Part shown: in pieces, positions 22,115 through 23,692 of the stretch
Layout of the letters: each line of letters opens with the position of its first letter
Numbering within the stretch: the stretch's first letter is position 1
From: Vibrio aerogenes
Lineage (GTDB): Bacteria; Pseudomonadota; Gammaproteobacteria; Enterobacterales; Vibrionaceae
Direction: 5' to 3'
Length of the DNA: 64,000 nucleotides
NCBI RefSeq assembly: GCF_024346755.1
Contig: NZ_AP024861.1
Span: 1,550,001-1,614,000, forward strand
Program-made: the position numbers and the translations under genes
The notes under the pieces: generated by a model
What the model was told of the DNA's origin: nothing
What the model saw: the letters and a program-made list of their open reading frames with translations, nothing else
Databases searched by the model: none

Positions 22115-23275
22115 TTAAAGATTCTCATGGCCGCCAGCTTTTTTGAACCAGCATGTTAAATGGTGTTTCAGAGTTTTTAATTCATCAGGACCTATTAATG
22201 CCAGTCCTAAATCTTGTGCTCTTGTGACATCATTTTGTCTGAGAGGCCTGAAGCTGATCAGCATCGCTCTGGCTTGTAACCCTCCTAAAAGGTCGCGAAG
22301 AGACTCCAGTTTATAGAGCGTATCATCTCCATCATCTCTCATCCCTTTCGTTTTACACTCGATGATATGCAGTTTATTGTTTACTACAGTTGCAATGTCG
22401 AGCTCATTTTTAACTTCTTTATCACCTAACTGCCGGTAAACCTGGACATTGAGTGACCGGTCCTGAATGGTCGGCATATCATCCTGTATCTGTCGGACAA
22501 CATTGTTAACCAGTGTTTCTAACCATTCACCATTTGCAAACCGCCTCGCATCTTCAGTCGCAAATGTCAGTATGCCTTTGTCGTATGAAGCCAGTTCTGC
22601 TCCAACCAGATCATTGATGAGTATACTGAGCTCTTTATATCCTTGCTGTTTTTCAGTTAAGGCAACGGATAGTTTTTGTTCTTTTCGACATGTTGTTGCA
22701 AGGTAATTGAGGGTTGCCAGTCCGGGACCGAGCTCGAGTGCATTGCCTGCCCAGTATTCCCCCAGCTTACAAAGTTTAATATCCATGGATGGGGTAAGCT
22801 TTTGCTCTGAAAACTCACCTCTGGCACCAAAAATAGTTAAATAATCAGAAATCGTAATTCGGTCTTGCACCTGAGTATCCTGAAAATTATCAGGATACAG
22901 CCAGCAAAGGCAATCTGAATCAGGTTCCACTACAAAAATTGGCCACTGAAAACTCCGGAATACCTCATAGACAGATAAGAGCCTGTGCCGCAAACCACAG
23001 CTGGCATTCAGCTGAATATGCTGACCTTTCTGCTTCAATTCGCTGGCTAGTTTATATATTGCGCTTTTGATTGAGATAATGTTACTTCCGGAAGGAATTT
23101 CATAAAACTCACTTGTAATTTGATGTTGTTCCAGAACAGCCTCAATACGGTGATATATTGGTTTTTGAGTAAGATCGCCCAGTAAGATGATATGTGAACT
23201 CACATTTCTGTGATCCAGTAGTGGAGTAACAAGACGAACAGGATCCTGGTCAATGATGCCAACATGAATAATCAT
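22115..23275 (-). CDS. DUF1887 protein: CARF-like domain plus PD-(D/E)XK nuclease domain (VC1899-like)
   Basis: A 386-residue protein of the DUF1887 family, whose V. cholerae member VC1899 has a solved structure. The N-terminal ~150 residues look like a Rossmann CARF-type fold (IIHVGIIDQDPVRLVTPLL). The middle links to a C-terminal PD-(D/E)XK nuclease with GEWLE (249-253), Asp293 in NELDIATV, and Glu306/Lys308 in IIECKTKG, a complete D-x12-ExK set. Relatives Card1/Can2 are activated by cyclic oligoadenylate from type III CRISPR systems. Here the usual CARF pocket motif (NxTGGTK-like) reads NASCGLRHR (91-99), and no CRISPR or cas gene is visible. Activity and ligand are unknown. Confidence 0.85.
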   Translation of the reverse strand: MIIHVGIIDQDPVRLVTPLLDHRNVSSHIILLGDLTQKPIYHRIEAVLEQHQITSEFYEIPSGSNIISIKSAIYKLASELKQKGQHIQLNASCGLRHRLLSVYEVFRSFQWPIFVVEPDSDCLCWLYPDNFQDTQVQDRITISDYLTIFGARGEFSEQKLTPSMDIKLCKLGEYWAGNALELGPGLATLNYLATTCRKEQKLSVALTEKQQGYKELSILINDLVGAELASYDKGILTFATEDARRFANGEWLETLVNNVVRQIQDDMPTIQDRSLNVQVYRQLGDKEVKNELDIATVVNNKLHIIECKTKGMRDDGDDTLYKLESLRDLLGGLQARAMLISFRPLRQNDVTRAQDLGLALIGPDELKTLKHHLTCWFKKAGGHENL

Positions 23276-23692
23276 AGATTTTCCTCATGCTTACCTGCAA
23301 AAGTTGAAAGGAAAGTGGTGCAGGTTGCTTTTAACATATATATGATGAAACAGGCAAAAAACAAGAGGAGCGGAGTAATAAGTCACAAAATATGACCTGC
23401 TTTTTACACAAGATAATCAGAGATTACGTGAATGATATTGTGGTTGGTGCATATATTGCAGTACTTTGTTCTGTTCACAAGGTCTGATGTTCATTTTTTA
23501 AGAAGAGTTTTGATTGAGCTTCATTTTTAAAAAGAGCATACTTTATCCGGGCTTTCATTTGTGGTTTTCTTTGTTTGTTTTTGAGGTTTTCGTCTGACGG
23601 ATGAAGACGTCTTTTACCCCGGAAGTTCATGTTTAAAAAGCAATATATAACTGTCCCCAGGATAACAACATCTAAAAATATTAGGAGCAATT
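23276..23692. other. Intergenic region between the DUF1887 gene and hinT
   Basis: About 417 bases holding the promoter regions of two divergent genes. A 71-codon minus-strand frame (23475-23690) begins at a TTG right after an in-frame stop, lies over the hinT ribosome-binding site and has no Shine-Dalgarno of its own; I do not accept it as a gene. No clear terminator, RNA gene or repeat is visible. Confidence 0.5.

Follow-up and report, generated by a model that had tools for sequence, protein, structure and literature searches.

VC1899 of Vibrio cholerae (PDB 1XMX), the founding member of the DUF1887 family, was one of the earliest CARF proteins to have its structure solved (PMC7969007). It has been used as a CARF model in an article that also notes family members without CRISPR linkage (PMC4012209), and it was earlier expected to accommodate cA4 (PMC6981274). 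The passages on VC1899 in PMC7969007 report a weak RNase that lacks cA4 regulation and DNase activity and is nearly inactive in vitro with cA4. They name E291 and D293 as key active-site residues, and they already describe both the orphan status of the protein and a pocket unlike that of Can2, a cA4-activated enzyme linked to type III CRISPR. For VC1899 these passages speak of no cOA besides cA4. Our literature search brought up no paper that we recognized as treating the family-wide conservation of VC1899/DUF1887, and we found no relevant passage on CARF4, orphan, Can2 or Card1 proteins in PMC12669027. Here we analyze a VC1899 orthologue of Vibrio aerogenes, encoded within a 64,000-nucleotide stretch of DNA (the window), and follow the residues of its pocket and nuclease site across the Vibrionaceae.

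Results and Discussion

The features of the gene and its protein are collected in Table 1. The Card1-like endonuclease domain, PF09002, matches residues 241–379 with 199 bits (cut-off 26.4), the PADLOC CARF4 model covers residues 1–379, and PF23400 matches residues 35–145 under its cut-off; NCBIfam gives no match for the protein at E ≤ 1. Fold comparison returns 1XMX, Can2, Card1 and further CARF domains. With PF09002 carrying an E-x-D...E-x-K site and with an N-terminal CARF fold, the protein belongs to the DUF1887/VC1899 family (PF09002, PADLOC CARF4 CARF-PDDEXK), and the Card1/Can2-like architecture that an initial annotation had read from this DNA is borne out. The protein is an orthologue of VC1899 whose sequence differs outside the fixed sites. 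Card1 (6wxw, 6xl1) and Cdn1 (9u49, 8z4i), whose PDB entry titles give cA4 or cA3 as ligand or activator, share 15–18% identity with it. The gene, on contig C1, is the sole matching place in its own genome.

Table 1. Features of the VC1899 orthologue, with positions counted along the window
Feature	Position	Strand	Basis
VC1899 orthologue, DUF1887 / CARF4 CARF-PD-(D/E)xK protein, 386 aa	22115..23275	-	
CARF (Rossmann-like) domain, residues 1-150	22826..23275	-	PADLOC CARF4, PF23400, fold match
Pocket loop 1, D9-x-D11-x-x-R14	23234..23251	-	residue counts, 239 proteins
Pocket loop NASCGLRHR, residues 90-98	22982..23008	-	residue counts, 239 proteins
Strand-5 end V115-x-E117	22925..22933	-	residue counts, 239 proteins
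PD-(D/E)xK nuclease domain, residues ~240-379	22139..22558	-	PF09002
Nuclease motif GEWLE, residues 249-253	22517..22531	-	residue counts, 239 proteins
Catalytic E291-x-D293	22397..22405	-	239/239; PMC7969007
Nuclease-site E306-C-K308	22352..22360	-	residue counts, 239 proteins
Promoter-like block CTTGTTTTTT...TATATATG	23335..23365	-	90 bp upstream of start codon

The recurrent neighbor of the gene, which we take to be udp, is found next to it in 45 of the 76 loci (1.5-kb flanks), fadR in 19, and neither in 12. With fadR in only 19 loci, the core fadR-adjacent position assigned by the initial annotation does not hold family-wide. The udp gene is convergent to ours in 15 of 21 long loci, and its recurrence looks incidental. 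No conserved partner gene was seen recurring beside the gene, nor any synthase, and the gene looks monocistronic with shifting neighbors. Upstream, the word CTTGTTTT, chosen from k-mer counts of the same upstream regions, occurs in 46 of 77 orthologue upstreams against a mononucleotide-shuffle mean of 0.74. Where a block of the form CCCTTGTTTTTT...TATATg...ggcttgc is present among the genus loci, it mostly stands about 90–100 bp ahead of the start, with the copy of the window gene at −90. This promoter-like block is retained in the genus loci despite their differing neighbors, and from its letters it may be a sigma-70-type promoter. The 77 upstreams give no indication of SOS control: an exact LexA box, CTGT-N8-ACAG, is found in 0 of 77, and when one mismatch is allowed 4 of 77 carry a box, fewer than the mean of 8.3 in shuffled sequences. 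A search of locus L001 against Rfam at E ≤ 0.1 gave no match.

The described Can2 enzymes (Sulfobacillus thermosulfidooxidans, 7bdv; Thermoanaerobacter brockii, 8q3z) are type III linked, whereas the window gene is not, and the two differ in the pocket. Where Can2-related rows mostly read S-x-Q-x-x-P, the window protein has D-x-D-x-x-R; where they mostly read N-x-T-G-G-T-K-P/L-M, it has NASCGLRHR; Y115 and, most often, H117 become V115 and E117; and in the nuclease domain a G250 found in most Can2 rows is replaced by E250. The S, T, K and Y residues that bind cOA in Can2 are exchanged in the family for D9, D/V/T34, R96 and V115. Fourteen sites are fixed in the Vibrionaceae clade (≥98%) and hold another, likewise fixed residue in Can2 (≥75%); 8 of these fall within 31 pocket-loop positions, the limits of which we set after the site list was seen (Fisher p 1.5e-6; 1.5e-4 inside the CARF domain). 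Pocket and locus were both tested, and since neither is that of a Can2/Card1 CRISPR effector, the protein is not classed as one.

Conservation was counted in a main set of 239 proteins sharing 55% identity or more, which reduce to 92 representatives at 90% and whose rows take in database proteins, near-duplicates, the partial row L090, and L129, a gene returned by the search in two pieces and read only as its stop-bounded ORF. D9 and D11 are present in 238 of the 239 (one gap each) and R14 in all; N90, S92, C93, G94, H97, V115 and E117 are present in 239 and R96 in 238. The nuclease residues E291, D293, E306 and K308 are each found in 239/239, as is the E250 of the Vibrionaceae clade. At 238 or 239 each, these pocket residues, F149 included, are as fixed as those of the nuclease, with R98 at 236. 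The 92 representatives keep the pocket and nuclease sites in 91 or 92 cases and R98 in 90. A second count covers 77 family rows, made up of the window protein and 76 loci, mostly best matches, out of 191 matching genomes. Apart from gaps in a single partial row, these show no variation at D9, D11, R14, N90–G94, R96, H97, V115, E117 and F149, nor at E250, E291, D293, E306, C307, K308 and T309, of which A91, C307 and T309 were counted here and not in the 239. Pairwise identity among the 77 rows is as low as 53%, and 132 of 386 positions are invariant. Sixty-five of 80 named loci are of the family class, and all 65, having been chosen among the 80 by D9 and E250, carry D11, R14, SCG, RH, V115, E117 and F149.

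Not every position that PMC7969007 places around the modelled cA4 is fixed: Q10 (61/77) and D34 (45/77) vary. Taken together, nine cA4-surrounding CARF residues have a mean entropy of 0.35, compared with 1.06 for random CARF sites (permutation p 0.008). The divergent protein L120 (genome G001, 2.6 Mb; 43% identity) falls below the cuts of 400 bits and 55% identity and hence outside the 239. It is changed at H97, R98, V115 and E117 and retains D9, D11, R14, NASCG, R96, E250 and the catalytic residues. Inner stops occur in at least 14 matching rows (13 from one genus, plus G008), and in the four that were checked (L063, L065, L068, L070) they lie at the protein end. The pocket is thus rebuilt rather than decayed and is nearly fixed family-wide. 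The initial annotation was right that the motif departs from N-x-T-G-G-T-K and that the nuclease core is intact; its description of the pocket as degenerate is contradicted by the counts in the 239 proteins.

On balance, and by analogy with Can2, we lean toward viewing the protein as a domesticated, stand-alone CARF-PD-(D/E)xK dimer, the pocket of which would be re-specialized for a non-cOA ligand. The strongest rival is a conserved nuclease that has no small-molecule sensor, its CARF domain serving in dimerization or in protein/RNA docking, while substrate, partner or metal would control the activity. V115 and F149 among the fixed CARF residues are hydrophobic and may have a role in packing, so that fixation could reflect dimer packing instead of ligand binding, and the lack of a recurrent synthase or partner gene beside the gene is in keeping with this. 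The fixed charged and polar residues D9, D11, R14, R96, H97 and E117, however, sit in loops equivalent to the cOA-binding loops of Can2, and we regard a sensor-free nuclease as a serious but rather unlikely alternative.

The relatives of the protein were placed in a tree of 117 rows, for which 33 family rows were hand-chosen and five short or odd Can2 rows left out; it was made by a quick method, has several long branches and is rooted at midpoint. The 33 Vibrionaceae rows form one clade with an SH-aLRT support of 97, or 99 with L120. This clade lies within a group of 96 rows, nearly all of which have non-canonical pockets, and a branch with a support of 100 divides the group from the remaining 21 rows. 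Among the sister rows with names, most come from marine gammaproteobacteria (Thalassotalea, Shewanella, Pseudoalteromonas, Paraglaciecola, Neiella), and most read NAS[CNT]GxR with E/D117. These DUF1887 genes have 31–39% identity to the window protein, have G250, and vary at residues 9, 11, 14, 97 and 98; few matches were found beyond the Vibrionaceae in the order and class samples. All 61 sister-clade rows (100%) and 90% of 21 Can2 rows have G250, and E250, directly before W251-L252-E253, marks the Vibrionaceae clade. Because this mark lies in the nuclease, sensor and effector have both been altered in the clade. A pocket turned catalytic or metal-binding, with D-x-D, C93, H97 and E117 sensing metal or redox state or degrading a nucleotide, would suit the composition of the fixed residues; only some sister-clade members retain C93 and H97, however, and we consider this reading improbable.

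Some individual loci of this wider group deserve mention. Inspection by eye of up to eight neighbors per locus, each read over its first 80 residues, shows cas genes alongside 1 of 13 non-canonical-pocket loci (L150–L156, L160, L162, L164, L166, L171 and L119), the one being that of Neiella, which PADLOC confirms. In Neiella litorisoli (L154:7989-13827; same in L117) the DUF1887 gene with a non-canonical pocket has as its neighbor a type III-D cas cluster with a CARF-TM protein of its own, and the PF22335 search of this genome detected no Cas10. In Thalassotalea sp. G2M2-11 (L150:6419-9152) a TraG/VirD4-like coupling ATPase (PF02534) stands directly upstream of an orphan DUF1887 gene, and two long genes further downstream have no clear PADLOC match; the ATPase was rejected as a conserved partner, being absent from the 15 other loci compared. 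Chromosome 2 of Thaumasiovibrio occultus (L155) bears a second, sister-clade DUF1887 copy reading NASCGPRHI, and the family orthologue is also present (L194).

A match to the gene is found in 191 of 197 evenly sampled Vibrionaceae genomes, in 12 of 13 genera, and in 184 of the 190 good genomes of the family sample, the weakest family match among the matches listed having an E value of 3.9e-100. The six genomes without it measure 1.0, 1.1, 2.1, 2.6, 3.1 and 4.4 Mb, and the first four are small. In three of the six hinT was found, and its 1.5-kb flanks hold no orthologue remnant (best tblastn E 3.5). Eight of 31 matches in an order sample of 295 genomes lie outside the family, and a class sample of 369 genomes gave 19 outside it, at 25–40% identity. 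Mobile carriage was rejected: 50,697 phage records held no match, and 72,556 plasmid records held a single weak, half-length one (Aeromonas, 30%) and no near-full copy. Over 55 close pairs the dN/dS (NG86) has a median of 0.022 and a range of 0.010–0.22, and the gene is under purifying selection. A relic gene, as suggested for VC1899, would agree with the weak RNase, the missing cA4 control and DNase activity, and the pocket unlike Can2 described in the VC1899 passages of PMC7969007, but it is highly improbable given 191/197 carriage, selection that is not relaxed, the fixation of both sensor and nuclease sites over 239 proteins, and small genomes making up four of the six that lack the gene.

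The genome does contain a type III system. A type III-B CRISPR-Cas locus spans C3:62994-76611 (L004:4994-18611) on the 85.8-kb contig C3, which is probably a plasmid because a Replicase/PriCT-1 protein and a resolvase are encoded near the locus. It encodes Cmr6, Cmr5, Cmr4, Cmr3, Cas10/Cmr2, Cmr1, a CARF8-TM-like protein, Csx16 (97 bits) and RT-Cas1, and it is flanked by two short arrays, one with 3 and one with 4 copies of a 35-nt repeat (67–70-nt spacing). The CARF8-TM-like protein (604 aa) has a short match to PADLOC CARF8 at 29.9 bits and no Pfam match; the 1027-aa protein matches reverse transcriptase and Cas1, and its N-terminal part is presumably Cas6. Cas10 itself (PF22335, C3:67504-67890) scores 109.9 bits, and its palm reads GGED; the usual Cas10 palm motif is GGDD. 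Another PF22335 match, on C2 at 35.7 bits, is a 527-aa protein reading GGEEF that looks like a GGDEF protein, and two further matches fall below the cut-off. A type I-F Cas1 on C2:541960-542634 (L231) makes a second CRISPR system likely.

Across the family, Cas10 (PF22335 palm2, E ≤ 1e-12) was detected in 7 of the same 197 genomes, a lower bound, as this search missed Neiella (G838) with its type III-D cas cluster; a related Cas10 screen (0/12, L160 left out) is weakened by the same miss. The gene is present in 7/7 genomes with detected Cas10 and in 184/190 without (Fisher p 1.0), so its presence is independent of detected Cas10 in the family. In five of the seven, gene and Cas10 are on separate contigs (the assembly is fragmented in three of the five), and in the remaining two they lie 0.42 and 1.37 Mb apart. 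By contrast, of the 19 class-level genomes outside the family, at least 14 have Cas10, within 10 kb of the gene in 9, and all nine of these Cas10-adjacent genes read N-x-T-G-G-[TAN]-K.

The absence of CRISPR asserted by the initial annotation therefore applies at most to the window: the gene does lie outside any CRISPR locus, on C1, and the genome has type III-B with two arrays on C3. An ordinary type III effector, answering cOA from the Cmr complex on C3, has the existence of that system in its favor, but we judge this very unlikely. The C3 locus comes with a CARF-TM protein and Csx16 of its own, the window protein is without most of the cA4-contacting residues of Can2, and the passages of PMC7969007 describe the V. 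cholerae orthologue as unresponsive to cA4. Because the gene occurs independently of detected Cas10 across the 197 genomes, the type III-B system does not explain it.

Conclusions

What is new here is that a non-canonical pocket and a nuclease site are nearly fixed across the family and that the gene occurs independently of detected Cas10. Under the re-specialized sensor-nuclease that we favor, the gene would have been kept on the chromosome from the common ancestor of most, if not all, Vibrionaceae onward, and its product would most likely be a homodimer, like Can2. Binding of a small ligand in a CARF pocket rebuilt at D9/D11/R14, C93/R96/H97/R98, V115/E117 and F149 would open the PD-(D/E)xK nuclease cleft, which could then cut RNA (or DNA) in a metal-dependent manner. 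As the pocket is rebuilt and near-fixed and most carriers are without detected Cas10, cA4 is probably not the ligand; a molecule that nearly all Vibrionaceae produce independently of Cas10 is the likelier one. Dimeric gating, the existence of the ligand and a defense or stress role are what we infer for the protein. The initial annotation's suggestion of a different ligand or a CRISPR-independent role is in part supported, by the altered pocket and by the independence from detected Cas10; the gene probably answers to a non-CRISPR signal. More tentatively, the family may use CRISPR-free CARF signaling, in which a small molecule of endogenous origin, produced by nearly the whole family without Cas10, binds the re-specialized pocket and switches the nuclease on under stress or phage infection. 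The near-fixation of a non-cOA pocket together with the nuclease site across the Vibrionaceae points to a working sensor-nuclease, and with the residues named here the question of what activates an orphan CARF protein becomes defined and testable.
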